From Neckera pumila (lineage: Eukaryota; Streptophyta; Bryopsida; Hypnales; Neckeraceae), in contig OZ018413.1 in assembly GCA_963969595.1 (NCBI GenBank), positions 11,646,211 to 11,710,210 of the forward strand: a stretch of 64,000 nt of DNA, read 5' to 3'. Shown here in pieces: positions 6,127-63,986 of the stretch. A model generated the notes under the pieces. It was not told where the DNA came from, made no database searches, and was given only the letters and a program-made list of their open reading frames with translations. The translations under genes were made by a program, and so were the position numbers. How positions within the stretch are numbered: the first letter of the stretch is position 1; every line of letters starts with the position of its first letter.

Positions 6127-6215
6127 TCTAGCCCCTAAAGGACCAAACACCGTTTTTTGACAACATAGTGAGTTTGGACCACGGTTTGGACAGCTCAGTA
6201 CAAACGAAGTTTTTA

Positions 6216-7157
6216 TTAACCCCTAAAGGTTTTTGACTATGTTTTCACCAAAATTGCTCCAAAACTGCCATTTCTAATACTAGTGCCAAACTTTAGAAAA
6301 AAGCATTTTCGGACACATGTAACCATAGGATCTTGTAGTAAATTTGTTTAAAAAGATGTAGAAAAAATTTCAGAATTTTCCACCGTGTAGATTGCAAGAT
6401 AATAGCATTTGAATTGACAAAAATCCATTTTTTGTCCGTGCAAAAGAACGGGCAGCTGCCCTTCACAAGGTCACATTTGTATGAAAAAATGTCCAAAATG
6501 GTGGTTATTCTTTGGATCCATTTTCCTAGACAAGTCGGATACATGCTTGAAAAAATTCAGATCATTTAGAATGGTACAACATACAGGAAAAAAATAGTAA
6601 GTAGGAAGAGATAGAGAATGATTTAAAACACTAAAATTGTTAAGAATTTATTTATGGAGTTGAAAAATGCCAATCCCAACGGTCGTTATGTTGTAGTAAA
6701 CAATCTACACTCAATGTTTTTATTTTTTTCAAAACTATTGAAAATTGAGTGAAATAAAGGACTTCAAAGTTTATTTTAGAGTTGAGATTCTATAACTACC
6801 CTCAAATTAAGAATCCTCATAACTTTTGACTCATAGATCCAAATGGAATGATTCAAAGCTTCCTGCCTACATATAAATCTAAAGAACAAATTTCAAATTT
6901 TTAATTTTTTAAAAAGTGATTTTTAAATAAGTTTTTCTTGCTGCCCGGGCTGCCCGCCGAGCAATGAAAATGACATATCATGCAATAACTTTTTAATCAT
7001 GTAGTCAAAAGTTATGAAAATTGTTGGGCCTTAAAGCTACACCTCAGGAAAATGTTGTTTGAAAATTTGAAAGAAAAAAATTAAAAACTCCGCTCATAGT
7101 GAGGTGCCCAAAAAAGCTATGTTCTCAAAAAAGCATGTTCATGGCTTTAGGGGTTAA
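6216..7157 (+). mobile_element. TTAA element, subfamily A, nested
   Basis: Ends TTAACCCCTAAAGG and CTTTAGGGGTTAA are complete. Head-to-tail it carries the family landmarks CTGCCATTTCTA, TTGCAAGATAA, CAATCCCAACGGT, CATAACTTTTGACTCAT and CTGCCCG. It interrupts the 6127-8942 copy exactly at TTAA. It is non-coding. Confidence 0.85.
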
Positions 7158-7200
7158 TTTTCTTTGAAATTTTCATGCAAGATGTGTCCAAGGAGTAGCT

Positions 7201-8132
7201 TTAACCCCTATAGTCCCATTGTCCCCTTGAGGGACAAAATGGATTTCATGTAGGCTCCTACAATTTCAATATTTGTTGTAATTTCTGAATTTTTTGTGAA
7301 GATAGAGAATCACATTACCTTTCTAAAAATGTAATTTTTATTTCGATCGATGCCCAGTAGCAAAAGTTATGGCAGAAAAACTCCAAATTTTAGTTCAGCG
7401 GGCAGAAAAGAACCCTCACAAAATCTTTAAATTAAATTTTTTTTAAATTTGCTTCATGCAGATTTTATTTTCATCTAAATGGGAAGCTTTGATTCATTCC
7501 ATTTGAATTTGTTATGCAAAAGTTATGGACAATCTTATTTTTTGGACAATTAGTTGGAGCATCTTCTTGAAAAAATAACTTCTAGGATTCATTTCTGAAA
7601 TCAATTTTAACAATTTTTAAGAAAAAAAGTTTCACAAAGTTAAGATTTCTTGTTAGAACAATCTCACCATTGAGATTAGTATACTTCAACCCTATCTTAG
7701 AGCTATTAATGATTTCATTTTTCCTTCAATTTTGAATCTACTTCTACTTAACAAATTTTCAATGAGTGAAAACTGAGTGTTTCTTTTCTGAATTTTTTGT
7801 CCTAGATTTTGAACTCAATTCCTCATCATATAAAATTAGAAATTCAAAATCATTAGAGCAAGAATTTTAAATTAAGAAGGTTCAAAGCCAAAAAATGTAG
7901 TTGAACCAGGTGCAAAAAAACTTGATTCCTTCACTTTAAATGCAAATATCTTGCAATATACACGGTCAAAATTTCTAAAATTTCTTCCACACATTTTTAC
8001 ACTAGTGTAGTACAAGATCCTATGGTTAAATATGCAAAAAACGCTATCAAATTTTTTTTTGCTCTTTGCTATAGAAATGGTAGTTTTGAATGATTTTTGA
8101 TGGAAAAAGGGCCTTGGGACTTTAGGGATTAA
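7201..8132 (-). mobile_element. TTAA element, subfamily B, nested
   Basis: It begins TTAACCCCTATAG next to GTCCCATTGTCCCCTTG and ends GGACTTTAGGGATTAA, with the head on the right. It interrupts the outer subfamily A copy at a TTAA that is intact and empty in the paralogues at 44679-44682 and 46832-46835. It is non-coding. Confidence 0.85.
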
Positions 8133-8954
8133 GGCCCAACAAATTATCATAATTTTTGACTACATGGTTAAAAAGTTATTGCATGATATGTAATTTTCAT
8201 TAGTCGGTGGATAGTTGGGGTAGCTCAAAAAATTCTTTAAAAATCACTTTTAAAAAAAATAAAAATTTGAAATTGGTTCTTTCTATTTATATATATGCGA
8301 GAAGGTTGAATCTTTCCATTTTGGTTAATGAGAAGAAAATTATGGGGATTCTCAATCTAAGGGTAGTTATGGAATCTCTACTCTAAAATAAACTTGGAAG
8401 TTCTTTATTTAACTAAATTTCCATTATTTTTGAAAAAGAACAAAAACATTAGGTGTAGATTGTTTATTACAACACTGCAACCATTGGAATTGGCATTTTT
8501 CAATTCCATATCTAAATTCTTAACAATTTAGTATTTTGAACCATTCTCAACTCCTTTCTACTTACTCTTTGTTTCCTATATGTTGAGCAATTCCAAATGA
8601 TCTGAAATTTTTCAAGCATGTAGCCAACTTGCCATGAAGAATGAATCCAAAGAGTAACCACCATTTTGAAGTTTTTTCATACAAATGTGACCTTGTGAAG
8701 TGCAACTGCCCGGATTTTTGCAGGGACAAAAAAAGGATTTTTGTGAATTCAAACACTATTATCTTGCAAGCCACTTGGTGGAAATCTCTGAAATACTTAC
8801 CACAACTTTCAAACTAGTGTATTACAAGATCCTACGGTTACATTTGTCCAAAAAATGTTTTTTTTCTAAATTTTTGTACTTGTACTAAAAAAAGCAGTTT
8901 TAGAGCAGTTTTATGAAAACATAGTGTTTGACCTTATATTAACAAATGCAGATC

Positions 8955-9882
8955 TTAACCCCCAAAAGAACCAACATACAATTTTTGGCTACATAGAAAT
9001 TTTGGGCAGGTACGTGTGACTAGGGATTTCAGTATTTTTGGCATAATTTTCAATAAAAGGTGGGGGCAAGGAATATCTTTCATATGCACTAAATTTCATG
9101 ACATTTGGTAATATGAGTCAAAAGTTATGGCCTAATATGCTACTTTTCTCTTAATTGGGCAATCCGGGCAGATCAGAAAAAATCACCTTTTTCAAAAAAA
9201 ATTGAAATTGATTTTTTAGAGTTATATACATGTCAAAAGCTTTGAATCATTCATTTTGATCAATGAGTCAAAAGTTATGAGGAGTTTTTGGTTGCGGGCA
9301 ACTATAGATTTCTTACTCTAAAATAAACTTTAAAGCTCTTTATCTTACTCAATTTTCAATATTTTTTGACAAAAAAAACACATAGGATGTAGATTGTTTA
9401 TTACAACATTGCAACCATTGGAATAGGAATTTTTAAATTGTATAACAAGTAGATTTTTAACAATTTAGTATTTTGAATCATTCTTTACTACTATCTACTT
9501 ACTATTTGTTTCCTATATGTTGAACAATTCCAAATGATGTGAAACTTTTCAAATATGACCAACTTGTCCAGGAAAGAGAATTTAAAGAAGTAACATCATT
9601 TAGGACACTTTTCATACAAAAGTTAGCTTGTGAAGTGCAGCTTCCATGTTTTTGGGAGGGCCAAAAAAATGATTTCAATGAATTTGAATGCTTATATCTT
9701 GCAATCTACGCGGTGGAAATTTCTAAAATTCTTACCATATGTTCTCAAGTCAACATACTACAACATCCCATGGTTACAAGTGCCTAAAAAAAGTTTTTTT
9801 TCAAAAACTTGATACTTGTTCTGAAAATGGCAATTTTTGAGTGTTTTCAGTGAAAACATAGTCATGGAACTTTAGGGGTTAA
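8955..9882 (-). mobile_element. TTAA element, subfamily A
   Basis: The right (head) end ACTTTAGGGGTTAA is intact. The left (tail) end reads TTAACCCCCAAAAG, slightly decayed. Internal landmarks are in the family order. Only 12 bp separate it from the preceding outer copy. It is non-coding. Confidence 0.85.
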
Positions 9883-10718: not shown

Positions 10719-11635
10719 TTAACCCCTAAAGGACCAAGGTGATTTTCCTATCAAAAACCACTCAAAATTATTCTTTCAATTGCAAAGAGAAAAGAGCTTT
10801 AAAAATAGTTTTGCATATAAATCGTAAGATCTTATATTTGACTAGTATATGAATACGTGGAAGAAACTTCAGAAACTTTGACCATGTAGATTGCAAAATA
10901 TATGCATTTAAAGTGAAGAAAACAAGTTTTTTTGGCATCTTGCTTGATTAGATTTTGTGGCTTTGAATCTTTTTAGTTGAAATTTTTGCACTATTGATTT
11001 TGATTTTCTACTTATTTATATTAAGTAGTTGAGTTGAGAATCTAAAAACAAATTTTGGAAAAAAATCACTTACTTTTCACTCATTAAAAAATTGTTAAAT
11101 AGAGGTATATTCAAGATTGAAGAAAAAACAAAATTGTTAATAGCTTTTAGATGGAATTGAATCACAATAATCCGAACGGTGAGATTTTTTTAGCAAGAAA
11201 AACTAACCTAATCTAAAAAAAAAATTTGAACTTTTAAAAATTGCATTCAAAAATGAATTCTACAAGTTATTTTTTTAAGAAGATGCTTAGATTGCCCAAA
11301 AAACTAAGATTGTCCATAACTTTCTCATTAGTCCAATTTGAATGAAACAAAGCTTCATATGTAGACAAAAATATAATCTTTGATAAAAAAATTTGAAAAA
11401 AAATTATTTTGACTTTCTGTGATTTTTTTTGTACTGCTCGTTGAACTCCATTTTTGCTTATTGTGCCATTGCTTCCGGCATCGACTAAAATAAAAAAATA
11501 TATATTCACAAAGCTCTCGTAAAAATATACAACCTCAAAAAATCCTAAAAAAATATCACTAAAAATTGAGACAGTAGGAACCTGCACGGACCCAAATTGT
11601 CCCCCGAGGAAACAAATGGTCCTTTAGGGGTTTAA
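10719..11635 (+). mobile_element. TTAA element, subfamily B
   Basis: It starts TTAACCCCTAAAGGACC and ends GGTCCTTTAGGGG followed by TTTAAA, one base longer than the usual TTAA. It carries GTCCCCCGAGG near the tail, as subfamily B does. It is more diverged inside than most copies and is non-coding. Confidence 0.8.
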
Positions 11636-11985
11636 AAACCTTGTAGACAAATGTATATTAGAGAAGTATAAAAGTTTTGGATAAAACTATTCTCTTAAAT
11701 CGTTGTATTGTAATATAGTCCTTGCCATAGATGATTTATGTCCTTCCAAGGATTTTTCCAATGAACTCTTGTGTCTCCAACTATCAAATGGATGGTTATA
11801 TCATCCATTCATAAATTTATTATAAAGATGACAACATCAATGTAATTAATAAATTCAAAGGTTGGTGGAATTATGAGAATGGACTCTAGTCCTTTGTTTG
11901 GAAAGTAATGGTGGTCTATTTGAATGTGATTTGACCCTCATGACCCTTAATACTAAATGGCTCCTACATTTTCCAAAAAAACTAT
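11636..11985. other. non-coding stretch
   Basis: AT-rich, no gene or known element recognised. Confidence 0.35.
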
Positions 11986-12334: not shown

Positions 12335-13227
12335 TTCACCCTTTAAACTCCTTGACTATGTTTTCACTGAAATCACTCAAGAATTGCCATTTTTAGTTCA
12401 AGTACCAAATTTTGAATCTTTTTTTTTTTTTTACATATGTAGTTATAGGATCTTGTTGTAATAGACTAACTTGAGAACATGTAGAAAAAATTTAAAACAT
12501 TTCCACCGTGTGGATTGAAAGATATAAGCGTTTGAAATTACAAAATTGCTATTTTGGTTCCTGTAAAAAATCGAGCAGCTGCACTTCACAAGCTTGCTTT
12601 TCTATTAAAAAAAAATGGCCAAAATAGTGGCCATATACTTGAAAAATTTCAGATCATTTGGAATTGTACAACATATAGGAAAAAAATAGTAAGTAGAAAG
12701 AAGTAGAGAATGATTCAAAATTCTAAACTGTTAAGAATTTAGTTATGGAATTGAAAAATGACAATCCCAATGGTTGCATTTTTGTAATAAAAATTAACAT
12801 CCTTTGATTTTATTTTATTAAAAAAATATTGAAAATTGAATAAGATAAAGGACTTCAAAGTTTATTTTAGAGTAGAGAATCCATAACTGCCCGCAAACAA
12901 AAATTCCTCATAACTTTTGACCCATTGCTTTAAATTGAATGATTTAAAGCTTTCTAAGTATATATAACTCTAGAATACCAATTTCAAATTTTTGTTTATA
13001 AAAAAAGTTTTTTTTTTTATATGCCCAGTCTGCCCGCCCGTAACATATTAGGCCACAACTTTTGATTCATATTTGCAAATGTCATAAAATTTTATTCACA
13101 TGAAAGATATTCTTTGTCCTCAACTTCTATTATAATTTGGGCCTAAAATATGAAAATTTCAAATCATAGGTACCTGCCCAAAATTGCTATGTTGCTAAAA
13201 ATAGCAGGTTGGTCTTTTAGGGATTAA
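12335..13227 (+). mobile_element. TTAA element, subfamily A
   Basis: The left flank has decayed from TTAA to TTCA (12335-12338) and the first bases are altered, but CTCCTTGACTATGTTTTCAC follows as in other A heads. The right end is CTTTTAGGGATTAA. Landmarks are in order. It is non-coding and older than the intact copies. Confidence 0.75.
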
Positions 13228-13713: not shown

Positions 13714-14624
13714 TTAACCCCTAAAGTTCCTTGATTGTGTTCTCACCAAAAATGCTCCAAAACTGCCATTTCTAGCACAAGTACCAAATTTTTGAAAAAT
13801 ATCATTTTTGGACACAACCATACAATTTTGTAGTACTTTGGTTTGGAAATGTGTTGAAAAAATTTCAAAAATTTCCATCGGGTAGATTGGAAGATATTAG
13901 CATTTGAAGTGGCAAAAGTCCTTTTTTGGGCCGTGCAAAAAATCGAGCAGCTGCACTTCACAAGGTCAAATTATTATGCAAAAAATTCTAAAATGATTGT
14001 GCTTCTTTGAATTCATTCTTCAGAGCAAGTTGGCTACATGCTTGAAAGTTTTCAGATTATTTGGAATTGTACAACATATAGGAAAAAAATAGTGAGTAGA
14101 AAGAAGTAGAGAATGGTTCAAAACACTAAATTGTTAAGAAGTTAATTATGGAATTGAAAAATGCCAATTCCAATGGTTGCAATGTTGTAATAAACAACCT
14201 ACATTGTACAATTTTATTTTTCTTGAAAATTATTAAAAATTGAGTGAAATAAACAACTTCAAAGTTTATTTTAGAGTAGACAATCCATAACTGCCCGCAA
14301 ACTAAAAATCCTTGTAATGTTTGACTCATTGATCAAAATGGAATGATTCAAAGCTTTCTACATGTATATAAATCTAATAAACCAATTTCAAATTTTTATT
14401 TTTGAAAAAAGTAATTTTTTTTTATCTGCTCGGACTGCCCGATTACAAAAAAAGTAACATATTAGGCCATAACTTTTGACTTGTATTTCCAAATGTCATG
14501 AAATTTGGTGCATATGAAAGATATTCCTTGTCCCCACCTTCTATAAAAATTTCAGCCCAAAATATGCAAATCTCCAGCTACACGTACCTGCCCAAAAAAT
14601 GCATGTTGGTCCTTTAGGGGTTAA
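13714..14624 (+). mobile_element. TTAA element, subfamily A
   Basis: Complete ends: TTAACCCCTAAAG and GGTCCTTTAGGGGTTAA. Landmarks are clear: CTGCCATTTCTAG, CCAATTCCAATGG, CAAAGCTTTC, GGACTGCCCG and CATAACTTTTGAC. A good reference copy, 911 bp, non-coding. Confidence 0.88.
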
Positions 14625-16148: not shown

Positions 16149-17081
16149 TTAACCCCTAAAGGACCATTGTCCCTTCGGGGGACAAATGCATTTTTGGGCA
16201 GGTACCTACGGGCTGAAATTTTCTTTTGATTTTTTGAAACTTTTTTTGGAGGTAGAAAAGCTGATTAGCTTCATGGGAATATAAATGTTTTCACAATCGG
16301 TGCTCGGGAACAAAAGTTATGACCAAATAAGCTCAAAACAAGGGACGATGGGCAACAAAAAAAATTTGCAATTTTTTTTTTTTTTTTTTTAAGTATTTTT
16401 TTTCTCATAGATTATATTTTTGTCTATCTAGAAAGATTTGATTCATTTCATTTGGATTTTGTATGAGAAAGTTATGGACATTCTTGTTTTTCGGGCAGTT
16501 AGAGCATCTTTTTGAAAAAAATACTTGTAGGATTCATTTCTAAATGCAATTTTTCAAATTTTTCAGATTTGTTTTTTTTGCATGGTTTAGTTTACTTGCT
16601 AGAACAATCTCACCATTGGAATTAGTGCATTTTAATCTCACCTAAAATATATAAATATTTTAGATTTTCCTTCTATCTTGTACCTACTTCTACTTAACAA
16701 TTTGTTTAATAATGAAAATTAAGTTTTTTTGAACTTTTTTTTTTGGGCTAGATTCTCAACTCAATTCTCCAGTATAAACTATTAAAAGCTCAAAACTCTG
16801 TAGTGCAAAAAAATAAAGTTAAAAATGTTCAAAGTCAAAAAATCTAGTCCCACAATGTGCTGAAAAACTTGTTTTTTTCACTTTAAACACAGATATCTTG
16901 CAATCTGTGTGGTCAAAAATTCTGAAATTTTTTCCACATACTCTCATACTAGTTAGGTGTAAGACCCTACGATTAGATGTGAAAAAAAAAGCATTTTTCA
17001 AAATTTTTTACTCTTTGCTATAGAAATGGCAGTTTTGAGTGTTTTTTGGCAGAAAAAAGGCCTTGGTCCTTTAGGGGTTAA
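16149..17081 (-). mobile_element. TTAA element, subfamily B
   Basis: Complete ends TTAACCCCTAAAGGACC and GGTCCTTTAGGGGTTAA, 933 bp. Its tail carries GTCCCTTCGGGGGACAA, a hairpin-capable motif shared by B copies. Its sequence around 16335 is the uninterrupted site for the CACTA MITE found in the 41218 copy. It is non-coding. Confidence 0.88.
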
Positions 17082-17664: not shown

Positions 17665-19506
17665 TTAACCTCTAAAGTCCTAAGGCCTTTTTTCCGTCAA
17701 AAAATTATTCAAGACTGTCATTTCTAGTGCAAAGATAATTAAAAAATCAAATGGTACTTTTTGCATATCTAAGAATGGGATCTTGTAGTAGACTGATATG
17801 AAAATGTGTGGAAAAAATTTCATACACTTTGACTTCATAGATTGCAAGATAAATGCATTCAAAGTGAAGAAATCACGTTCTTTAGCACCATAGCAAACTA
17901 GTTTATGAGGCTTTTGAATCTTCTTAGTTTAAAAGTTTTGCATTGTAGATTTTGAATTTAAATTTTTTATCATGAAAATTTGAGTAAAGTTTAAAAAATA
18001 AATAAATTAAAATGTTAAAAAATAATGTAATTTTCATCCTTTTAAAAATTATTAAGAAGAAGAAAGTATATCAAAGAGCAGAAACTAAATCATTGAAAGC
18101 TCTAAGACAGAATTAAAATACACCAATTCCAATGGTGAGATTGTTTTAACCCTTAAAAGCTCGTTGTCCCTTTGGGGGACAAATATGTTTTTGGGCAGGT
18201 ACCTACGGGCTGAAGTTTTCTCCTGATTTTTTGAAACTTTTTTGAAAGGTAAAAAAACTGATTAGCTTCATGGGAATATAATTTTTTTCACAATTGGTGC
18301 CTGGGAACAAAAGTTATGACCAAATAAGCTCAAAATAGGGGACGGCGGGCAGCAAAAAAAAATTGTATTTTTTTTTTTTTTTGTAGTATTTTTTTCTCAT
18401 AGATTATATTTTTGTCTATCTAAAAAGCTTTGATTCATTTCATTTGGATTTGTTATGAGAAAGTTATGGACATTCTTGTTTTTGGGGCACTTAGAGCATC
18501 TTTTTGAAAAAAATAACTTGTAGGGCTCATTTTTTAATGCAATTTTTCAAATTTTTCAAATTTTTTTTTTGGCATGGTTTAGTTTACTTGCTAGAACAAT
18601 CTGACCATTGGGATTAGTGCATTTTAATTCCATCTAAAATATATGAATATTTTAGATTTTCCTTCATTCCGTACCTACTTCTACTTAACAATTTTTCCAA
18701 TAATGATAATTAAGTTTTTTTGAATGTTTTTTTTTGGGTAGATTGTCATTTCAATTCTCCACTATAAACTTTTAAGTCTCAAAACTCTGTAGTGTAAAAA
18801 TTTTAAGTTAAAAATGTTCAAAGTCAAAAATTCCAATCCCACAATGTGCTGAAAATTTTCCCTTTTTTACTTTAAACATAGATATCTTCCAATCTGTGCA
18901 GTCAAAAATTCTGAAATTTTTTCCACACATTTTCATACTAGTTAGGTGTAAGATCCTATGGTTAGATGTGCAAAATAAACATTAAAATTTTTTTTTTCAC
19001 TCTTTGCCTAAAAAATGGCAGTTTTGAGTGTTTTTTGGTAGAAAAAAGGCCTTGGGCCTTTAGGGGTTAATAACCAAATTTTTTTCAATAGAATTTTTTC
19101 TTTTTAAAAAATGTGAAAATTGAGGTCAAAAACAAATATTATATATTCTTTTCTCAAAAGAAAACTACGATTGGCCCCTAAAAAAGATGTTCCATAACAT
19201 TTACATCACAAATCCAAATGGAATGAATAATAGCTTTCCATGTAGACAAAAATAAAATCTATGAGAAACAAATTTTTAAATTTTTATTTCAAGTTTTATT
19301 GGATTTTTTTCCTACCCACCGATTTCCATTTTGGACTTATTGTGGTATAACTTTTTCTCCTGGCACCAATTGAAATAAAAATTGTACTTAGAAAGCTAAA
19401 AGTTTTTCTATCTTATGAAAAAGTTTCAAAAAGTATTGCCAAAAATTGAGCTTATGAGAACCTTTGCAAATCCATGTTGTCTCCTAAATAGACACTAGGA
19501 CTTTAA
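17665..19506 (+). mobile_element. TTAA element, subfamily B, split by a nested copy
   Basis: The head starts TTAACCTCTAAAGTCC and the decayed tail ends GGACTTTAA near 19506. The element is interrupted at 18146 by a complete B copy. Without the insert it is about 920 bp, the normal size. It is non-coding. Confidence 0.8.
18146..19070 (-). mobile_element. TTAA element, subfamily B, nested
   Basis: TTAACCCTTAAAAGC at the left and GGCCTTTAGGGGTTAA at the right. It lies in the TTAA of the outer element just after that element's CAATTCCAATGGTGAGATT landmark. It is very similar to the copy at 16149. Non-coding. Confidence 0.87.
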
Positions 19507-20065: not shown

Positions 20066-22034
20066 TTAATCCTTAAAGTACCAAGCCGCATTTTTTTGGC
20101 AACATAGCAATTTGGGCAACTCGCTACAAATAGAAAAATACACTATATTTTTTTAATTTAGTTTTAGATGTGGGGACAAGGAGTACCTTGCCACTCCACC
20201 AAAAAAAAATTCATTTTGAATTTGTCCATGAAAAGTTATGGAAAAAATGTTGTTTTTAATGGACAAAGGAGGCAACATGGGCAAAGTTCTTTACACTAGA
20301 GCAAAAACTGCAATACCATGAACCAAAGAGCTTGGATAAGGCTATGGACAAGCTTTTAGCCCAGGGTCATGCCTGGTACTTCTCTGACATTTTATTGAAC
20401 TCATAAACTTGTCACAATGTACAAAGAGGTGGTAGCAGGGAGACAAATGCTTTATAGCTTCATGTGGCCAAATGAGTGGTTAATGCTAACTACCACATTC
20501 AAACAAAAAAGAAAAATACCCACAAAATTCATTGAATCAATTATCAATCTGTCATTTGATAAACTCCCATACCAAAAAATTTAAGGCAAATTGATACAAT
20601 TGCTTCTTTGACACTTGTTGGAATGATGGGTGGAGAGGTCATTTTTATAATCAAATTCATTGTCCCTCACACATCCTCAAAGGATATGGAATAATTTGAA
20701 GATGAGAGCTTGACCATTCATTGTCAAAATATAGATATTATGTTCAAAGTAGAATTTTAGACCTCATTTTGTCATAGTGGAACAACGTGTTTCAAAAATC
20801 TTTAAACTAAAAGAAGTTGTTAAATAAAGCTAAATTTAATCTCCAGAAATCCGTTTGTGGTTTTGAGCCTCCAAAAAAAGTTATAGACAAAATTTAGAGA
20901 GGATGCTTGAAAATGTCAATGAAAATGTCCCTTGCAATCCCTCTTTGAAATTTGTCTATAACTTTTGAGAAGAGACTCTAAACCTCAAACAGAATTTTGG
21001 AAATGAAAGTTAGTTTTTTTTACTTCAAGTTTTTAAGAAAAAAGTTAGTCTACTATGCCAAAATGAGGCCTGAAATTCTAATATGAATACAATTTTCTAC
21101 TTTTCACTTAACTATAAGCAGTTGAGCTCCTAGTAATTCTAATTCACATATCCCACTTGGGCTGTTTACCTACTACTACCCCACTTGTATAAAGATCCTC
21201 TCTTCTCATCTTGAAATATACAGTGCTATTGGCTTTACAAGTTATGGAAGATTGGCATCTTATATTTTGATATAATTGAAATTTAATGGTAAACATTCAA
21301 GAGTTATAATTTATGTAGCAAAGAAATCTTCAAAATTGAAGGAAAAGAAAATATCTTTAAAACCAAGGAGAACTTTATCCAATGCTAGACTACAGTAAGC
21401 CTAACCTAGCCTCCTCCCGTGCCAAAGCCCAATAGGCACAACTGCCCTTTACTTTTGTTTGGATACAGATTTATCAAGCTTGCCAAAGTTTGATATTTTG
21501 GGCAATTTTTGTTTTTATTTTTTCCTCCTCTAAAGCTAGTTGAAATCTAAAAATCCACCATTCACATTTTGAAGAAATGATTTATGTGCAAACAATAAAT
21601 TGTTGAAAAAAAGGCTTTGTATGAGATTTTTCTTCAACCTAGTTTCCTATTGGAGTCTTTTGGCACATGTTCTCCAATTTGAAATGTTATAATTTTTTTT
21701 GAGCATGAGGACAACTTTATCAAAAAAGTCAAGAAAAAAAATTTAAGCAAAAAATAGAGTTAACTATTGAAAAAGCCTCCCCAAATCAGAACTACCCGGA
21801 ATTTGGATGCCCCCCATGCCAAAAATTGTTTTTTCAACTTCAGATACTATAATTTCACAATCTATACGGTCAAAACCTCCCATTTTTTACTACAACATAA
21901 TGAAATAGTCTAACACTAAGTCTTATGGTTAGATGCAATAGGATTTCATTTGTCATTTTTGGATGGCCTTTGCCATCAAAACGACCCATTTTGTGTGTTT
22001 TTGGTGAAATATAGTCAAAGTACTTCAGGGATCA
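20066..22034 (-). mobile_element. old TTAA element, subfamily A, with insertions
   Basis: The left end reads TTAATCCTTAAAGTACC and is followed by the A-tail wording (GGCAACATAGCAATTTGGGC). The right end reads GGTGAAATATAGTCAAAGTA then CTTCAGGGATCAA, a decayed A head. The extra length is partly explained by a palindromic element at 20740-21205. It is among the oldest copies in the window. Confidence 0.55.
20740..21205. mobile_element. palindromic foldback element P, partial copy
   Basis: The arms share AGAATTTTAGACCTCATTTT with its inverted counterpart, and AGTTATAGACAAAATTT with AAATTTGTCTATAACTTTT. The right arm continues to TAAAGATCCTCTCTTCTC, but the left arm lacks the outer 120 bp seen in the 33069 copy. 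It lies inside the old A element. Confidence 0.65.
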
Positions 22035-26682: not shown

Positions 26683-27324
26683 TTAATCCCTAAATGCCCA
26701 AGGTACCCAAATTTGGTGTTTGCAAAGCTTTGAAGTTAAATAAAACCTAACCAAGTTGCTATTTTTAGTAGTTTATATTTTTCAAAAGTTCTTCTTGAAG
26801 TTTAATTTTAGCATCAAAAATATGATCTTGAAAATAAATGATAGTGATTTTTCTATTCAAGTTTTTGTACAAGGGTACCCATTGCAATCTTGACTTCCTG
26901 TAGTGTTGAGAGCTCTTGGAAATGAGCCTTTAATACACTAAATCTTGGAGAAAAATCACATTCAAAATTCATTTAAAAAAAATGTAGAGTAGATTTTAAT
27001 AAGCCATAAATTGATTGGGGTTATACAAGTTAGGTCCTTTAACCTCATATTTTTTTGGTCACCAACTTTTTAGATTTGACTTGTATAAAGAAGATTGAAA
27101 GATTTATGCAGTTTTAGCACCCTCATGGTTGAACATTATAATCTTTCACTCCATAAGTGATATTGTTGTGTTTTCTTTTCCTATGAGATCTCTAACACGG
27201 CCAATTTGAAATTGTACAGTTACAATTCAAAAAAATGATACAATTTATCAAAATGTTGGCATTTTGTTCAATTTAGAGCAAATTCCAAGAAGCCCAAAAC
27301 AGGCCTTGGGCATTTAGAGGTTAA
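26683..27324 (-). mobile_element. TTAA element, subfamily C
   Basis: It starts TTAATCCCTAAATGCCC and ends GGGCATTTAGAGGTTAA. The interior is homologous, in opposite orientation, to 28803-29368 (shared ATTTAGAGCAAATTCCAAG, GATTGAAAGATT and GAGCTCTTGGAAATGAG). It is shorter than A and B. Non-coding. Confidence 0.8.
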
Positions 27325-41639: not shown

Positions 41640-42386
41640 GTTTGATAAAATAATTTGTCTTTCTGTAGGGGAGTTTCTACTTCATTTAGAGAATGTACCA
41701 AGTCCAATTGAAATATGGTGTTCAATTGCAAAATTCATTAGCGGGTTCATTAGGGTTGATTGCTCTTGTCAAGTTAATAAAACATCTTCAATACTAGGCT
41801 AATAATGATTGATATTAAGTATGTGTCAAATTATCAGCTATTAGACAATATCGCTTACAAAAATTTCATTTCAATGCCTAAGGTATGCAAACCCAAAATA
41901 GCATGGTGGTGAAATACATTATTCCACAATCTTAAGTAATGATTTTGGACAACCATTGCAAACATATAGGGAGTTAAAGAAACAAATTAGAATCCAAATA
42001 GACAAGAATAGTCCTTCCTTAGCTAGAGACAACAACGGGATGCTAAATATTTTTGCTTTGTATTTAATATACAACATCCAAAGTGTGTGTGTGTGTGTAT
42101 TCTAAAAAATGAGTGGACTAAAGTGCATTGGAAAACTCTCTAATTTGCGCTTCTATTGCACCTTGACAATTGTGAATGCAATCAATGTAGAGATGTGCAA
42201 TGACCAAAAAGATGGCAATGAACTATTCTACTTTATCTGTGTTTAGTTCATATATATCATAGGCAACATTCTAATGTGGTGGAAATGAGATTCATAATTA
42301 GCATTACCAATATTATAGCTTGTTTAAAATAATTGAATCTACTTATGTGATTCTTATCTAGAGTTCTTGATGTTTCAAATAATTTA
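41640..42386. other. AT-rich non-coding stretch
   Basis: A GTGTGTGTGTGTG run lies at about 42085-42099. The open frame to 41802 matches no protein I know. Confidence 0.35.
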
Positions 42387-42952
42387 CAACCCCTATAGGA
42401 CTAGGGTATATTTCAAACAAAAATTGTCAAAAAATACTTCATTTCAAGGCAGTAAGAAAAAATAGAAAAGAAGTTTTTAACAGTTCAACTGTGTAAAAGT
42501 GTGCTAGACTACTGTAGAAATGTATAGAAGAAATTTACGTAATTTTTTACCATATAGAGTTCAAGATTACAATATTTGAAGTTAGATGAAAAAAAATTTG
42601 ACGCAACCCGAAAGGGTCAATAAACTTCAACTCCTCCTAGAATGAGATTTTTGCACTACTTTTTAAAGATTTTTTTTAATTGCATCCTACATTATGTTAG
42701 TTACATTCTTGCAAAATTCTCCAAGTAAAAGATGTTTTATCAGAGTCTGCTTAAACTACCCAAAAAATTTCAAGCAACATAACTTTTAATATGGGCAACC
42801 AATTGCAAAAAAAATTATATTCCCCCAAACGGAAGTACTTGTTCACACCTTGTTTCAAAATTTTCAGAAAAATCCATCCAAAATTGCCTTTGTAAGAACT
42901 TACTTGAATTTTCAAGTAGTTGATCACGACCACTTGGTCCTATAGGGGTAAA
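42387..42952 (+). mobile_element. TTAA-family element, small diverged subfamily
   Basis: Ends CAACCCCTATAGGACTAGG and GGTCCTATAGGGGTAA are inverted repeats, but both TTAA flanks have decayed. The interior resembles 28030-28477. It is about 565 bp and non-coding. Confidence 0.65.
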
Positions 42953-44547: not shown

Positions 44548-45030
44548 TTAATCCGTAAAGGACCAAATAGTATTTTTTGGCAATATAGCAATTGTGAGCA
44601 GCTCATTAAGAAGTACGAACAAGATTTTTATTTTATTTTCTTTGAAATTTTTACATATCATGTGGTCAAAGAGTAGCTTTAAGGTACAACAACTTTCACA
44701 ACTTTTGATTATATGGTTAAAAAGTTATTGTATGAGATGTAGTTTCTATTGCTTGGTGGGCAATCTGGGAAACTCAGAAAAAAAACACTTTTTGAAGAAA
44801 TAAAAATTTGAAATTGGTTTTTTAGATTTGTATGTACATTATAATATGTACATATAAATTTATATGTATCTGGAAAGCTTTGAATCATTCCATTTTGATT
44901 AATGAGATGAAAGTTATGAGGAGTTTTGGTTAGCAAGCAATTATGGGATTTCTACTCTAATATAAACTTTGAAATATTTTATTTAACTCAATTTTCAATA
45001 TTTAAAAGAAAATAGAAGAATTGAGTGTAC
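44548..45030 (-). mobile_element. TTAA element, subfamily A, tail half only
   Basis: It starts TTAATCCGTAAAGGACC and follows the A tail to about 45030, where similarity ends. It preserves GTAGCTTTAAGG with an empty TTAA at 44679-44682, the uninterrupted form of the site used by the 7201-8132 insertion. Confidence 0.75.
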
Positions 45031-46028: not shown

Positions 46029-46958
46029 TTAACCCCTAATGTATTTGACTATGTTTTCACCCAAAAGGCTCCAAAAGTGCCATTTCTAACACAAGTACCA
46101 AATTTTAGAAAAAAAGCATTTTTGGACACATGTAACCGTAAGATCTTGTAGTGCAATGGTTTGAGAAGATGTGCAAAAAATTTCAGAATATTCCACTGTG
46201 CAGATTGCAAGATATTTGTATTTGAATTGAGAAAAACCCTTTTTTTGTCCCTGTAAAATCCAGGTAGCTGCACTTCACAAGGTCACATTTGTATGAAAAA
46301 ATGTCCAAAATGGTGGTTACTCTTTGGATTCATTTTTGAAGTCAAGTTGGCATTATGCTTGAAAATTTCAGATCCTTTGAAATTGTACAACGTAAAGGAA
46401 AAAAATAGTAAATAGAAAGAAGTAGAAAATGAATCAAAACCCAATATTGTTGAGAATTTAATTATAGAATTGAAAAATGCCAATCCCAATGGTTGGAATG
46501 TTCTAATAACCTATCTACATCCAATGTTTTTATTTTTTCTTCAAAACTATTGAAAATTGAGTTAAATAAAGGACTTCAAAGTTTATTTTAGAGTAGAGAT
46601 TACATAACTACCCACAAACTAAAACTCCTTATAATTTTCATTGCATTAATCAAAATGGAATGATTCAAAGCTTTCCATGTATATGTAAATCTAGAGAACC
46701 AAATTCAAATTTTTACTATTTTAAAAAGTGATATTTTAAGGATTTTTTGAGCTGCTTGCCGAGCACTGAAACTACATATCATACAATAACTTTTTAACCA
46801 TGCAACCAAAAGTTATAAAAATTGTTGGGCCTTAAAGCTTCTCCTTGGAAAAATGTTGTGTGAAAATTTCAAAGAAAAAAAAGAAAAACTCCATTCATAG
46901 TGAGCTGCCCAAAATCGCTATGTTGCCAAAAAACGGTGTTTGGGTGTTTAAGGGTTAA
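46029..46958 (+). mobile_element. TTAA element, subfamily A
   Basis: Ends TTAACCCCTAATG and GTTTAAGGGTTAA, 930 bp, landmarks in order. It preserves GGGCCTTAAAGC (TTAA at 46832-46835), an empty version of the site occupied at 7201. Non-coding. Confidence 0.87.
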
Positions 46959-47756: not shown

Positions 47757-48671
47757 TTAACCCCTCAAGGCCCAAGGCCTTTTTTCTGACAAAAAACACC
47801 CAAAACTGCCATTTTTTTAGCAAAGAGTGAAAAAAAGTGAAAAATGTTTTTTTTGCACATCTAACCATAGGATCTTAAACCTAACTAGTATGAGAATGTG
47901 TGGAAAAAATTTCAGAATTTTTGACCACACAGAGTACAAGATATCTGCGTTTAAAGTGAAAAAAACAAAATTTTCAGCACATTGTGGGACTACATTTTTT
48001 GACTTTGAACATTTTTAACTTAAAATTTTTACACTACAGAGTTTTGAGCTTTAAATGCTTATAGTGGAGAATTGAGTTGACAATCTACCCAAAAAAAAAA
48101 AATTCAAAAAAACTTAATTTTCATTATTGTTAAGTAGAAGTAGGTATGAGATAGAAGGAAAATCTAAAATATTCATATATTTTAGATGGAATTAAAATGC
48201 ACTAATCCCAATGGTCAAATTGTTCTAACAAGTAAACTTAACCATGGAAAAAAAAATTCTGAAAAATTTGAAAAATTGCATTCAGAAATGAATCCTACAA
48301 GTTAATTTTTTCAAAAAGATGCTCTAATTGCCCCCCAAACAAGAATGTCCATAACTTTCTCATAACAAATCCAAATGAAATGAATCAAAGCTTTTTAGAT
48401 AGACAAAAATATAATCTATGAGAAAAAAAAATACTAAAAGAAAGAAAAGTGCAAATTTTTTTTGCTGCCCGCCATCCCTTGTTTTTAGCTTATTTGGTCA
48501 TAAGTTTTGTTCCCGGGCACCGATTGTGAAAAAAATTATATTCCCATGAAGCTAATCAGTTTCTCTACGTCCCAAAAAAGTTTCAAAAAATCAAGAGAAA
48601 ATTTCAGCCCGTAGGTACCTGCCCAAAAATGCATTTGTCCCCCGAAGGGACAACGGGCTTTTAGGAGTTAA
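47757..48671 (+). mobile_element. TTAA element, subfamily B
   Basis: Ends TTAACCCCTCAAGGCCC and GGCTTTTAGGAGTTAA, 915 bp. The tail has GTCCCCCGAAGGGACAA, the B hairpin motif. Non-coding. Confidence 0.85.
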
Positions 48672-53209: not shown

Positions 53210-54140
53210 TTAACCCTAAAGTTCCATGACTATGTTTTCACCGAAAACGTTCAAAAACTGCCATTTTTAGTACAAGTACCAAATTTTTGAAATTTTTTTT
53301 TTTTGATACATATAATTGTAGGATCTTGTAGTATGCTGACTTGAGAACATATGGTAAAAATTTCAGAAATTTCCACCACGCTGATTGCAAGATATATGCA
53401 TTCAAATTCACTGAAAACTATTTTTTTAGCTCTGCAAAAAAAAGGGCAGCGACACTTCACAAGCTCACTTTTCAATGAAAAAATGTCCAAAATGATGGTG
53501 CTCCTTTGGATTCTTTTTCCTAGATAAGTTGGCTAAATGCTTGAAAATTTTCAAATCATTTGAAAACGTACAACATAGAGGAAAAAAATAGTAAGTGGAT
53601 AGTAATATAAAATGATTCAAAATACTAAATTGTTAAGAATTTAATTATGGAATTGAAAAATGCTAATCCCAATGGTTGCAATGTTTTGATAAATAATCTA
53701 CATCCTATGATTTTATTTTTTTCAAAAATATTGAAATTTGAGTAAGATAAAGGATTTCAAGGTTTATTTGAGAGTAGAGGATCCATAATTGCCCACAAAC
53801 TAAAAATCTTCATAACTTTTGACTCATTGATCAAAATGGGATGATTAAAAGCTTTTTACGTGTATATGATTCTAGAAATCCAATTTCATATTTTTGTTTT
53901 TGAAAAAAAAAGTTTTCTCCTTATCTGTCCGGACTGCCCAGTTACAAAAAAAGTAACATATTAGGTCATAACTTTTTATTCATATTTCCAAATGTCATGA
54001 AATTTAGTGCATATAAAAGATACTCCTTGCGCCTACCTTTTGTTAAGATTTCAGCTTAAAATATGGAAATCTCTAGTCACATGTACCTGCCCAAAATTTC
54101 TATACAACCAAAAAACGCATGCCGGTCCTTTAGAGGTTAA
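53210..54140 (+). mobile_element. TTAA element, subfamily A
   Basis: Ends TTAACCCTAAAGTTCC and GGTCCTTTAGAGGTTAA, 931 bp. Very close to 13714-14624 throughout, with all landmarks. Non-coding. Confidence 0.88.
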
Positions 54141-57042: not shown

Positions 57043-57353
57043 AAAGTTGTCAGGATGTCCAGATGTCCAGAGTCCAAGGACGCTGGCCCTTGGACGTCCC
57101 TAGGCATTCGGTCGAACCCCGACCGCCCGTCCAGTGGACAGTCGGATGGGGGATTGAACGGGCCTTCAGACGGTCGGTTGAAAATCAGACGGACCTTTGG
57201 AAAGGCAGTCGAAGGTCGGACGGGCATTTGGACCGGCAATCGGAGGTCGGACGGGAAAGCAAGAGGTCGAACGCAAGGTCGGACGGCCAATCGGTCTGTC
57301 AAGCTCAAGCAAACGGGCAGTCAACAGTCCGACTATCTGATCGACCAATAGTT

Positions 57354-57960
57354 AAAATATACCTCATAATATATCATTGGAAATGTATTGTCAAAAGCTT
57401 TCCAATGGTATACTATGTGTCCAATTTGGACAAAAAATCCGATGGTGAGAACCTTTCAAAGATTCAGGTCGGACACGAGGTCGGACGAGCGGTCAGCCGT
57501 CCGACCGTTTGATTGTGCAAAGATTAAAATATGCCTTCTAATATATCATTGAAAAGGTATTGTTGAGAGCTTTCCAATGACATATTATGTGTCCAATTTG
57601 GACAAAAACTCCATTGGTGAGAATCTTTCAAAGATTTAGGTTGGACACGAGGTCGGAAGCAAGGTCAGCCATCCGACTGTCTGACCGTCCGAAGACTAAA
57701 ATATGCCTCATAAAATATCATTTGAAAGGTATTGTCAAGAGCTTTCCAGTGGTATATTATGCATCTAATTTGGACAAAAACTCCGACGGTGAGAACCTTT
57801 CAAAGATTAGGGTCAAACGGGTAGTCAGCCATCCAACAACTTAAATATGTCTTATAATACACCATTGAAAAGGTATTGTCGAGAGCTTTCCAATGGTATA
57901 TCATGCATCCAATTTGGACAAAAAATCTAACGGTGGGATCCCTCCAAAGATTAAGTGCTA
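57354..57960 (+). repeat. 172-bp tandem subrepeats in the left arm
   Basis: TAAAATATGCCT-like starts occur at 57354, 57526, 57698 and 57842 (spacing 172, 172, 144). Each unit reads CATTGGAAAGGTATTGTC, AGAGCTTTCCAATGG, GTCCAATTTGGACAAAAA, GGTGAGAACCTTTCAAAGAT, then GGTCGGAC-type variants. CATTGGAAAG with CTTTCCAATG and TCCAATTTGGA are themselves inverted, so every unit can form hairpins. Confidence 0.85.
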
Positions 57961-58711
57961 ATTATTAGTGTAATTCTTGTAATCTTGTAATCTTTATCTG
58001 TACTTAAAAAGATCACGTTTGTCATTATTTAGTTAGATGGGTGGCTCGCTTTGAATTGGATTATCAAAACCTTTGTATGCTTGATTTGTATTATATATTA
58101 CTAAGACTCTGACCATATATTTTTCCCTCTTTCAATTCAATCGATATTAAAATCGTTATTGTAATCTATAAGGTTAGAAAAGTATTATAACTTTCTAATT
58201 GTAAAATCATTTGTACATGCACTATTTCTTATTGCTACCACATTTCTTTGGCTATAAGATTGTGGCATATATTGATAATTCTATTTATGTTAAGATTTTT
58301 GGTCCTATTAGTTGATATTGACAATAGTATTGGAATTTTTTTGTGAAGTTAAAAAAAACTATTTTTTAAGGTGAAACCTACTTGTAATCATTAAAGTATG
58401 ACATACTTATCCCAATCATTAGTTTGAAGGTACCCATACTACAAAGTGACATTGTATAAGATTTTAGAATATAACATTGTCTTAAATGTCAAATTATGGT
58501 GTGATGACATTAATATATGTTAAAACGTGTGTTGTAAAATTATGAAAAAATCCACAATGCATGTAGAATGAGTTGTAATGAGTTACAATGCATTGTCCAA
58601 GGTAAAATAAGTCACTTATTGTGATAGGCAATATATGGTCGGCATGCCCATCTTTGATTTTTAGAATGATCCACAACCAAGAAAGTCATAATTTAGTTTG
58701 GACCAAAAATC
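57553..58711 (+). repeat. foldback left arm
   Basis: Inverted partner of 60645-61803 without gaps. Identical peptides read out on opposite strands at the two places (for example 57587-57844 plus and 61512-61769 minus) are a by-product of this identity, not conserved genes. Confidence 0.95.
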
Positions 58712-60644
58712 ATGAATACCTTCAAGAAACCAGCATTATGAATTAAACTTTTGATCTCGAAATTTAAATAGATTGATAAGATTCACCTACCTAATTAAAA
58801 AATGATGAACTTGATCTTTTAAGGTAAAGATAATAACTCCAAGAATGCTACAAATAACAAGAACTACACTAATGGTCAACAACTAATCATTGGAAGGATC
58901 CCACCGTCGAAGTTTTTGTCCAAATTGGACGCATTATATACCATTGAAAAGCTCTGAACATTACCTTTCCAATGGTATATGATAAGGCATATTCAAGTCG
59001 TCGGATGGTCAAACGGTCGGATAGGTAGTTGGACGGTCGGCCATATGGGCGGACGGCTGGGTCAACCCCAACCTTTGGAAGGATCTCACCATCAGAGTTT
59101 TTGTCCAAATTGAACGCATAATATACCATTGGAAAGACCTCAACAATACCTTTCCAATGGTATATTCTAAGGCATATTTAAGTGGTCGGATAGTCAGACG
59201 ATCAGACGACTAACTGCCCGTCCGACCACCTGTCCAACCTATTTGACCGCCCATCCAACTTCTTGTCCACACACACACACCCCAGCCTTGTGTCCGACTT
59301 CTCGGCTTGCTTATCCGCCAAGCCTTCTGCATAACAACTATTTGCCCGTCCGCCCTGCCGTCCATCTTTATCGAAAATATTGGATTTTCAAAAGCACAAA
59401 TTTGCTTTCAAAGACTGCTATTCAATGTTATAAGCATCTAATGTACATTAATGTATGCAAGGAAGGATAATTGAAGTTATTCTTCTACAAACTTAAGTCT
59501 ATAGTCTAAATGCTATGCTTTAAATTTTATATCCTAAATCCTATATTATAAACCCTAAACTTTGAACCTTATATTATTTACCAGAAACATTGGTGGAGTG
59601 AGCAAAATATATTTGGCCTTCAAATCCCTTTAAATGTCATTATCAAAATATACTTCATATGAACCTCATGGATTTATTCATTTATGTTTCCAATGTGTTC
59701 TTTGTTTTCTTCATCAATTATTATGTATCAATGTACAAAGTGGAACATGCAATTATAACCTAAAGTATTTCTTTAAGTTTTGTTGTAAAATGCATTGATA
59801 GTGTAAAACACCAAAGTAAACAATCTAAATACAATACAAGCAATTATACTATTTTATTATTCTATTAGGAGATCCTATTAAAATTGCTTTAAGCACTTCA
59901 ATGTAATTTAATGTAGTTTAATGTAGCTCAAAATTAAATATTGCATTCATACAACCAAAATATAATTGAAGTTATTTTCCTACATCCTAAATTGTAAACT
60001 ATCAGCAATATATCCCATATCAAAAATATTGGTGCTTTGGTAGTAAAGAAGGTGATTGATCTTTAAATATGATAACCCCTCATGTATAACAATTATGGAC
60101 CTTATTTATGTACATATTTGTTATGTACTTCTACATTAAAAATAATATCATCAATTCATCTTGTTGTAATATGCAAATGTGAAATATGCAATTTTGATTT
60201 GAAGGGTTACTCTAAATTTGGGCTTAAGATGCATACCAAATTCAAAGGATCAATACTATTAAACTACAATTGTACAATTAATTTTATACTTTTATTAGAT
60301 GGTGCTATATTGGAGAAATGGAGAATCACCCATCTCCACATGAGCTCGTGAATTTTTTTCAAAACCAAACATGTGTATTATGTAATATTGATTGATTTTT
60401 CAAAACAATTGCATTTTTATGCTTCAAATGAGAGTATGGATTTCATTGAAGTAAATCAGTAGATTATAATTGAATAAAGAAAAATGCTTGAATGTTTATA
60501 ATCTAAGTAATGATGGCATTGAATATCACTCACATAATTAATATTTGTATTTTGGAATATGTTGTCATGGTGAATTTAATAAGTCTATTCAAAGGTCTAG
60601 GTAAAACATTGGATTTATAATGTGGATTTTTGGATGGACGGAGG
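58712..60644. other. foldback spacer with an older inner copy of the end sequence
   Basis: Between 58850 and 59370 the minus-strand wording of the arms recurs in diverged form (GGATCCCACCGTCGAAGTTT, TTGTCCAAATTGGACGCAT, then GGTCGGA-type and GTCCGACC-type words and a short AC run at 59272). The remainder, 59371-60644, is AT-rich; no transposase or protease domain was recognised. Confidence 0.65.
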
Positions 60645-61803
60645 GATTTTTGGTCCAAACTAAATTATGACTTTCTTGGTTGTGGATCATTCTAAAAATC
60701 AAAGGTGGGCATGCCGACCATATATTGCCTATCACAATAAGTGACTTATTTTACCTTGGACAATGCATTGTAACTCATTACAACTCATTCTACATGCATT
60801 GTGGATTTTTTCATAATTTTACAACACACGTTTTAACATATATTAATGTCATCACACCATAATTTGACATTTAAGACAATGTTATATTCTAAAATCTTAT
60901 ACAATGTCACTTTGTAGTATGGGTACCTTCAAACTAATGATTGGGATAAGTATGTCATACTTTAATGATTACAAGTAGGTTTCACCTTAAAAAATAGTTT
61001 TTTTTAACTTCACAAAAAAATTCCAATACTATTGTCAATATCAACTAATAGGACCAAAAATCTTAACATAAATAGAATTATCAATATATGCCACAATCTT
61101 ATAGCCAAAGAAATGTGGTAGCAATAAGAAATAGTGCATGTACAAATGATTTTACAATTAGAAAGTTATAATACTTTTCTAACCTTATAGATTACAATAA
61201 CGATTTTAATATCGATTGAATTGAAAGAGGGAAAAATATATGGTCAGAGTCTTAGTAATATATAATACAAATCAAGCATACAAAGGTTTTGATAATCCAA
61301 TTCAAAGCGAGCCACCCATCTAACTAAATAATGACAAACGTGATCTTTTTAAGTACAGATAAAGATTACAAGATTACAAGAATTACACTAATAATTAGCA
61401 CTTAATCTTTGGAGGGATCCCACCGTTAGATTTTTTGTCCAAATTGGATGCATGATATACCATTGGAAAGCTCTCGACAATACCTTTTCAATGGTGTATT
61501 ATAAGACATATTTAAGTTGTTGGATGGCTGACTACCCGTTTGACCCTAATCTTTGAAAGGTTCTCACCGTCGGAGTTTTTGTCCAAATTAGATGCATAAT
61601 ATACCACTGGAAAGCTCTTGACAATACCTTTCAAATGATATTTTATGAGGCATATTTTAGTCTTCGGACGGTCAGACAGTCGGATGGCTGACCTTGCTTC
61701 CGACCTCGTGTCCAACCTAAATCTTTGAAAGATTCTCACCAATGGAGTTTTTGTCCAAATTGGACACATAATATGTCATTGGAAAGCTCTCAACAATACC
61801 TTT
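60645..61803 (-). repeat. foldback right arm
   Basis: Inverted partner of 57553-58711. The only mismatch I noticed is G at 60705 against the A expected from the left arm (58651). It includes the subrepeats in inverse order. Confidence 0.95.
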
Positions 61804-62070
61804 CCTATGGTTTATTATGAGACATATTTTAGTCGTCAAATGGTCAGATGGCGGACCGCACATCCGCTTGAGCCCGGCTGACCAGCCGCCTGTCCGACCT
61901 TGCGTCCGACCTTGCATTCAACCATCTGTTTGACCTCACGTCCAACCTTGCGTCCGACTTCCCGTCCGACCACCCATTTGCCATCCATCAGATGGCGGAC
62001 TCTGGACGTCGTCCGCTACGTCCTAATTTGGACGTGATTTTGCCCCGAATGTTAAAATGTGACAATCCTG

Positions 62071-63046
62071 GCCTCCTACTTAGGCCATAGATGTCCCCGT
62101 CAATGATACTTGGGTCTCTTGTTCTACTCTTGGTCTTGTTGGCAAATTCGCTTTGAAATTATTTTGTTAGATGCTTTCTTGGTTTCTCTGTTACGCTTAA
62201 GCAATTTTGGGTTGTTAGTGCATTAGTACTCAATCCATTTTGTTATAAGAACATAATTGGTCGTGGTGAATTTGTTAATATAGCAAAGGTTTGTTGCCCA
62301 TCAAAAGTGAGCAACTGTTTTCGGAGAACATACGGCACAAGATGTTGGAGTATCAAATGCTCTTGGTATTTTTAGCTAGTTATATTCTACAAAATCAATT
62401 GTGGCATTCCGGTTCCATTCATGTTGTCTTTCACATGGGCAAAGTGGTTATTAGTTACCACCGGTATTGAAATATCCTACTACCAATTTGAAGATATATG
62501 TAGATACATTTTATTATATGGTGCGTCTTCTGTAACTGATAACCTATAATCTGTATAGATAGATTGAAATTTAGCCTAGAATTTTGAGATGTATTAGTTC
62601 CATTTTTGATATGTTAATTTTAGTCTTTTACCTATGGGAAGTAAGCCGTAATGCTAATTGGGTGTTTTAGCGTGTCCAAGTATGAAAAGATGTTAAGTGG
62701 TGGAAGGAAGCTAGATGGTTATTCTGAGTTGGCGACGTCGTATGGAATGGGATTTAAGGAGTTGCGTTGTTCCTATTTGGTAGTTGGAAGTTGAAAAGGT
62801 GTTGAATGTTAAATATTTAGCTTTTTTCCAAGTCGGTATTGTCACCCACTGCTAGTGAGAATGTACAAGTGTAGCAAATGTTGGCTGTTTTTGTTGCGTA
62901 ATTTTTTTGCAATTTTTTTTTTGCAGTTAAATTGCTTATTGGATTTGTAATTGCATTTAGTTGTGTTTGATTATGTGCTGTGGAATGTAAAATTTATACA
63001 AGCTGAATGTTGAAAGTTGTCTTGTGCTGTATAAGTGTGCATTTGC
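62071..63046. other. non-coding stretch after the foldback element
   Basis: Somewhat less AT-rich, transcript-like wording (T-rich tracts, GTTGTTAGTG) but no open frame of note and no splice model I could support. Confidence 0.35.
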
Positions 63047-63986
63047 TTAACCCCTAAAGGACCGAGGCCCTTTTTCTACCAAAAAACATTCAAAACTGCC
63101 ATTTCTATAGCAAAAAGTAAAAAAAGTTGAAAAATGTTTTTTTTTCACATCTAACCAAAGAATTTTACACCCAACTAGTATGAAAGTGTGTGTAAAAAAT
63201 TTCAGAATTTTTGACCACATAGATTGCAAGATATCTGCGTTTAAAGTGAAAAAAAACAAGTTTTTCAGCACATTGCGGGACTAGATTTTTTGACTTTGAA
63301 CGTTTTTAACTTAAAATTTTTGCACTATAGAGTTTTGAGCTTTAAATCTTTGTAGTGGAGAACTGAGCTGAGAGTCTAGGAAAAAAAAATTCAAAAAACC
63401 TTAATTATCATTCTTTAAAAAATTGTTAAGTAGAAGTAGATACAAGATAGAAGGAAAATTTAAATTATTCATATATTTTAGATGGAATTAAAATGCACTG
63501 ATCCCAATGGTCAGATTGTTCTAGCAAGTAACATAAACCATGCAAAAAAAAGAAAAACTGAAAAATTTGAAAAATTGCATTCAAAAATGCATCCTAGAAG
63601 TTATTTTTTTTCAAAAAAATGCTTTAATTGCCTAAAAACAAGAATGTCCATAACTTTCTCATAACAAATCCAAATGAAATGAATCAAAGCTTTTTTAATA
63701 GACAAAAATATAATCTATGAGAAAATATATATATATAAAAAAAAATCAAATTTTTGTCCATTTCTTTTTGCTGCTTGGGCTTCTCGCTGTCCCCTAGTTA
63801 GAGCTTATTTGGTCATAACTTTTTTTCCCGAGCACCGATTGTGAAAAAAATTATATTTCCATAGAGCTTATCAGCTTTTTTATCTTCAAAAATAGTTTCA
63901 AAAAATCACGACAAAATTTCAGCCCATATGTGCTTGCCCAAAAACACATTTGTCCCTCCAACGGACAACGATCCTGTAGGGGTTAA
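63047..63986 (+). mobile_element. TTAA element, subfamily B
   Basis: Ends TTAACCCCTAAAGGACC and GATCCTGTAGGGGTTAA, 940 bp; landmarks in order, with an ATATATAT insertion near 63727. Non-coding. Confidence 0.87.

Follow-up and report, generated by a model that had tools for sequence, protein, structure and literature searches.

The 64,000-nucleotide stretch of contig OZ018413.1 analysed here (positions 11,646,211 to 11,710,210; the window) carries a population of short elements with common inverted ends, which we identify, with a probability of about 95%, as non-autonomous piggyBac transposons (miniature inverted-repeat transposable elements, MITEs) of a moss. The identification is built on direct observation of the element ends and of TTAA as their target, on a single empty site, on subterminal sequence shared between the short and the long elements, and on the presence in this genome of full-length elements whose ends match and whose transposase frames are open. 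The host is a moss because an exon encoding the LEAFY DNA-binding domain (10560165-10561152 of contig C4) is identical at 103 of 106 residues (counted manually) to PDB 4bhk, which we take to be the Physcomitrella protein, and is clearly less similar to 2vy1, presumably that of Arabidopsis; the exon encodes D at a position occupied by H in 2vy1 and by Q in 9fwy, a D that we assume to mark mosses. Pfam matches to frames of the window and of the sampled stretches gave no such indication of the host. The plant genome named in a preliminary description of the window, made from its letters, is thus narrowed to that of a moss.

With up to three mismatches allowed, the end TTAACCCCTAAAGGACC is matched 35 times in the window, against an expectation of 0.18 from shuffled sequence (largest 3). 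Self-comparison and consensus searches of the window resolve 16 complete non-coding elements in which both ends are readable, falling into types A (8 copies) and B (6 copies), each about 930 bp long, and type C (2 copies of 642 and 566 bp). The three types have roughly the terminal 12 bases in common, with a resemblance that extends to about base 17, and A and B are additionally joined by co-linear matching blocks along their length. Copies differ by a mean K of 0.27 within A and 0.28 within B, with a K of 0.096 for the closest A pair, and neither consensus shows protein-coding content, the longest open frames of 85 codons in A and 91 in B not exceeding those of shuffled sequence (95% of shuffles at 91 and 98 codons, respectively). 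The preliminary description had counted some 19 near-complete copies of a single family. The count is close (16 complete, 2 divergent and 2 interrupted copies, 20 together), and the single family gives way to at least three types.

The type A copies lie at 7201-8132 (minus strand), nested in an older B copy and matched by a clean empty site in two of the six related B copies; 10719-11634 (plus, divergent, right flank TTTA at 11631-11634); 18146-19070 (minus), nested in an older A copy; 29365-30295 (plus), whose left TTAA is common to the type C element at 28803-29368; and, with TTAA at both flanks, 16149-17081 (minus), 39372-40303, 47757-48671 and 63047-63986 (all plus). Type B copies are found at 6216-7157 (plus), nested in an older B copy; 12335-13227 (plus, left flank TTCA at 12335-12338); 8955-9882 (minus), 13714-14624 (plus) and 46029-46958 (plus), each with TTAA at both flanks; and 53210-54140 (plus), where TTAA is seen by eye on both sides and the left end is one C short, so that the scripted count scored GTTA. 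The two short type C elements, at 26683-27324 (minus) and 28803-29368 (plus), have similar terminal sequence and are 83% identical over 426 aligned bases. Beyond the complete elements there are two interrupted older copies, a B copy at 6128-8946 (minus) split by 6216-7157 and 7201-8132, its own ends decayed, and an A copy at 17665-19505 (plus) split by 18146-19070, its right end decayed; two divergent relatives, one at 31171-32080 (plus) that aligns along A and B and one of 567 bp at 42386-42952 (plus); and truncated pieces, including the terminal 190 bp of a type A copy at 41218-41407 (minus) and part of a type B copy at 44548-45017 (minus).

The four TTAA bases that flank these elements are nearly fixed. 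Exact TTAA stands at 30 of the 32 ends of the complete window elements, TTTA and TTCA being the exceptions noted above, and the outermost base of the TTAA is kept at all 32, while in the ten bases beyond the elements no position has any base above 15/32. Most window copies were first detected by a pattern that itself contained TTAA, and the fairer count is therefore one based on similarity. Among 37 near-full A and B copies so identified in all fetched DNA including the window (omitting L001-L004 and L006, which overlap with other loci), exact TTAA borders 60 of 68 readable ends, and both ends in 25 of 31 copies; the eight remaining ends read TTTA (three) and TTAT, CTAA, GCAA, TTCA and GTTA (one each). 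These counts agree with the preliminary description, which had the copies bordered by TTAA or a decayed form of it. At a site of pure TTAA a 4-bp duplication is formally indistinguishable from a duplication of TA within TTAA, and it is because the outermost base is near-invariant that we regard all four letters as the recognised target.

The nested A copy at 7201-8132 provides an empty site. When its flanks are joined, two of the six other B copies (6216 and 46029) show the same sequence with a single TTAA, and the remaining four read TGAA or TAAA. Because these two relatives carry one TTAA, it must have existed before the insertion and been duplicated by it, and at this one nested site with informative relatives TTAA belongs to the target rather than to the element, the point on which the preliminary description had left its reading open to challenge. 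The TTAA flanks of 14 A and B copies show 2 changes in 112 bases where 12.0 would be expected from terminal branches; a constraint on TTAA above that on the element body was considered and rejected, since A and T bases had changed less than others and since part of the time along the branches precedes insertion. Adjoining elements with one common TTAA occur at 29365 in the window and at L010 2187, L011 5775, L032 990 and L033 856, with no sign of a preference for insertion beside an existing element (3 shared TTAA at MITE ends, 2.0 expected).

The genome that contains these short elements also contains full-length elements with a piggyBac transposase. The piggyBac transposase profile PF13843 (DDE_Tnp_1_7) gives 116 scored matches among 873 candidates genome-wide (best E of 4.6e-80) and none in 14 control genomes. 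Nine of the at least 116 transposase loci were read, and five of them are complete elements with piggyBac transposase between matching ends and TTAA on both sides. Three belong to a group, PB1, of 5,630-5,634 bp with ends TTAACCCCTAAAGTCCC, located at L028:881-6514, L029:1024-6654 (98.8% identical to L028) and L030:579-6208 (98.9% identical to L028), in all three cases between TTAA at different places. The other two form PB2 (L032:990-6360 and L033:856-6226), which are 5,371 bp long, 98.9% identical and terminate in TTAACCCCTTGGGG and TTAACCCCTTGAGG, again with TTAA on both sides of each. At L031 the right end is an exact TTAACCCCTAAAGGACC, with an exact GGACC. Open frames extend over 894 codons in L028 (638 from the first ATG), 655 in L029, 621 in L030, 999 in L033, 959 in L035 and 886 in L036. 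Submitted as 875 residues, the product of L028 matches PF13843 with an E of 4.7e-81 and has sequence similarity to the solved chains 6x67 (E of 2.7e-35) and 9c0f, piggyBat (E of 1.6e-23), and the three catalytic D residues and the W are kept in all six host transposase representatives. The preliminary description had tentatively placed the short elements in a piggyBac-like or Sola3-like superfamily from their ends and target and had proposed a search for longer elements; the five found here, which encode the transposase of piggyBac and not of another superfamily, support the piggyBac placement.

Several further features of the full-length loci were noticed. Over their first 330 codons the transposase frames of L028, L033, L035 and L036, which represent four lineages, show no detectable similarity to each other (best E of 0.14), although they are 33-40% identical in their catalytic parts. 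Cys-rich tails on the transposases were seen by eye, L028 having no Pfam zinc-ribbon match. Both PB2 copies are located in the TTAA of a MITE.

The short elements are tied to PB1 by sequence well inside the ends. Type A positions 1-201 are 73% identical to the right 211 bp of PB1, 834-929 are 74% identical to its left 96 bp, and 447-527 are 75% identical to an internal block, while type B positions 1-205 are 69% identical to the right 216 bp. Some of the blocks on which A and B agree best, AGATTGCAAGATAT among them, are located in the right end that is shared with PB1. The perfect inverted ends, excluding TTAA, are 14 bp long in the A consensus and in PB1 and 9 bp in the B consensus, and all start with CCC. 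Because of this similarity in the ends and internal block, the most suitable reading of A and B is that they derive from piggyBac elements by internal deletion, although not from the PB1 copies read. In the mechanism that we propose, full-length elements elsewhere in the genome would make piggyBac transposase, which would recognise the ends common to long and short elements (CCCCTAAAG...), excise short copies and insert them into TTAA, thereby duplicating it. A and B would have arisen as old internal deletions, with type A retaining relatives of the two piggyBac ends (about 100 bp for the left and about 210 bp for the right) and a single internal block, without the coding part. Mobilisation of A and B in trans is an inference, as would be any choice among the several piggyBac lineages for the one that drove them.

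A number of observations weigh against this reading. No movement was observed, and the direct parent of A or B was not found among the sampled full-length elements, which are 69-75% identical to them in the shared parts. Type B has no match to the PB1 left end beyond the terminal bases. The fourth end base is C at 28 of 32 window ends, off the piggyBac CC[C/T]T motif, and the PB1 ends read ...AAAGTCCC, not ...AAAGGACC. Both ends are recognised at five of the nine transposase loci, the other four (L031, L034, L035 and L036) having one recognised end, on the right; among these is L031, the sole transposase locus with an exact GGACC right end, for which the fetched DNA shows no left end that could be recognised. 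A stop splits the transposase frame of L032. Finally, at the other two nested sites the host copy reads TTAA and relatives with TTAA number 0 of 6 and 0 of 8, so that these sites are compatible with a duplicated target and go no further.

The identity of 69-75% and the divergence within types would also fit a variant of the piggyBac explanation, in which A and B were moved by a now-extinct piggyBac lineage, to which today's full-length elements are cousins that have ceased to mobilise A and B. We consider this possible, although not the favoured form, given that the loci read are just nine out of 116 or more with transposase, that the closest A pair differs by a K of only 0.096, and that L031 has a right end exactly matching that of the short elements. 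A different superfamily is much harder to accommodate. Sola3 is another group that duplicates TTAA, and a review table lists a Sola1 entry for the moss Physcomitrella (PMC9033089); elements of this kind would have to resemble piggyBac merely at their ends, while type A is like piggyBac-encoding elements over about 210 bp on the right and 96 bp on the left. This makes Sola3, which the preliminary description had kept beside piggyBac, very unlikely, and with PF13843 as the transposase profile searched the alternative is not needed.

Kolobok, which the preliminary description had left unmentioned, is another superfamily that duplicates TTAA. Its termini are described as 5'-RR (PMC6004289, PMC9587614), whereas those in the window are 5'-CCCC, and the transposase encoded by full-length elements whose ends match is that of piggyBac; a Kolobok assignment was rejected on the termini and is scarcely credible. 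The remaining candidates are MITEs of the PIF/Harbinger (Tourist, 3-bp TWA) or Tc1/mariner (Stowaway, TA) type that sit in TTAA by chance. A PIF/Harbinger transposase with its Myb partner is indeed present in the window, and plant MITEs are mostly placed in these and other known plant superfamilies. Targets of TWA or TA would leave the outermost TTAA base free, however, and none of the 32 window ends has lost this base, while in the wider set at most three of the eight non-TTAA ends alter it. Around the PIF gene itself (1-6127) no end is found with up to five mismatches, and we regard a chance association of this kind as barely tenable.

The piggyBac MITEs are abundant throughout the genome, as the preliminary description had supposed of its family. 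In the assembly that contains the window (339,505,838 bases in 18 contigs), an exact search for the 17-letter end gives 12,107 matches (6,010 + 6,097), and its reversed control gives 0. A sample of 190 kb, composed of 19 stretches of 10 kb at round coordinates of contigs C1-C10 (6 of them from C1), consists to 12.2% of A/B-like sequence and has 16 alignments longer than 700 bp, which extrapolates to roughly 28,000 A/B-like copies, an estimate and not a count. The exact A-type end has no match in viral contigs (23 and 19 letters) or in bacterial and archaeal contigs (23 letters), and Rfam at gathering thresholds gives no match on the window nor on 15 of the 19 sampled stretches.

The system shares with the known piggyBac superfamily (piggyBac 6x67, piggyBat 9c0f) the TTAA target and its duplication, short inverted ends starting with CCC, and a DDE_Tnp_1_7 transposase with three catalytic D residues and a W. 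It differs in its moss host, in complete elements of 5.4-5.6 kb, in frames of up to 999 codons as compared to 594 and 578 residues in the two solved chains, and in an end of CCCCT rather than CC[C/T]T. The latter motif is given for inverted ends of 12-19 bp in a paper that also includes a CCCC-starting family (PMC2872659). The transposases are set apart as well. The catalytic part of the L028 protein matched 50 database proteins, and a tree, rooted by midpoint only, places 25 of these whose names are uninformative (P0066-P0090) together with the six host representatives. This group is separated at 100/100 from the other 25, which include two mollusc PGBD4-like proteins. Our guess is that P0066-P0090 are moss proteins; the protein search requires shared short words and similar length, and the lack of named plant proteins among its matches is no evidence of their absence.

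Among MITEs the closest parallel is with the coral CMITEs (PMC2872659), piggyBac MITEs that are likewise non-coding, TTAA-flanked, bounded by short CCC-starting ends and tied to co-resident piggyBac elements, but are about 100 bp long with an expected 18 to 737 copies per family, in contrast to about 930 bp and thousands of copies in the moss. The Xenopus T2-MITEs (PMC6004289) are also abundant, long-lived TTAA families, with a terminal AGGRR motif and a Kolobok assignment. Plant Tourist and Stowaway MITEs are similarly short, non-coding inverted-repeat elements, with TWA and TA targets (PMC12595863) and other transposases. A survey of MITEs in 207 plant genomes recognises five superfamilies and, beside them, one special group, with no TTAA-specific class (PMC12550479); four superfamilies are distinguished in a review on plant MITEs (PMC12595863), and the land-plant table that lists Sola1 in Physcomitrella has no piggyBac entry (PMC9033089). 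The statement in the preliminary description that such families are rarely reported from land plants is a fair one, if not absolute: one review includes PiggyBac among angiosperm MITE superfamilies (PMC10004981), a fern repeat table lists 1,230 PiggyBac elements (PMC6890710), and plants are given as hosts of piggyBac-like elements (PMC8086355, PMC10813416). No description of a moss piggyBac family turned up in the literature searched.

Other features lie beside the MITEs. The PIF/Harbinger transposase (DDE_Tnp_4) and its Myb/SANT partner frame occupy 2110-4311 of the window; the best named relative is in the fern Adiantum nelumboides, and no match to the transposase was found in viral contigs. 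A large structure at 57264-61912 contains two inverted arms of about 1.3 kb with 96% identity (57482-58787 and 60569-61866) together with tandem repeats of about 172 bp. Related fold-back repeats are present at 33069-33659 and 20706-21211, the former 84% identical to its own reverse complement over about 590 bp. Also in the moss genome, L024:1874-3988 (minus) encodes a 705-codon frame with AAA and DUF7025 domains.

We conclude that a real and very abundant piggyBac MITE system is present in a moss, with full-length partners that look recently active. Its kind is already known, and the surprise lies in the host and the scale. With about even odds in our judgement, there may be a deep piggyBac clade that is proper to mosses and has large transposases (in three lineages the open frames reach 886-999 codons), of which at least two lineages (PB1 and PB2, with copies about 1% apart) would have moved recently and whose derivatives would account for about an eighth of the sampled DNA. 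If true, few piggyBac MITE amplifications would be larger, and a land plant would possess a native piggyBac system that may still work. That piggyBac-derived A and B sequence covers about 12% of sampled moss DNA suggests that a major class of repeats can be overlooked or misassigned by such plant MITE classifications, and in the full-length elements with long open transposase frames plant biologists would have a native excision system to examine, TTAA-specific and potentially seamless.

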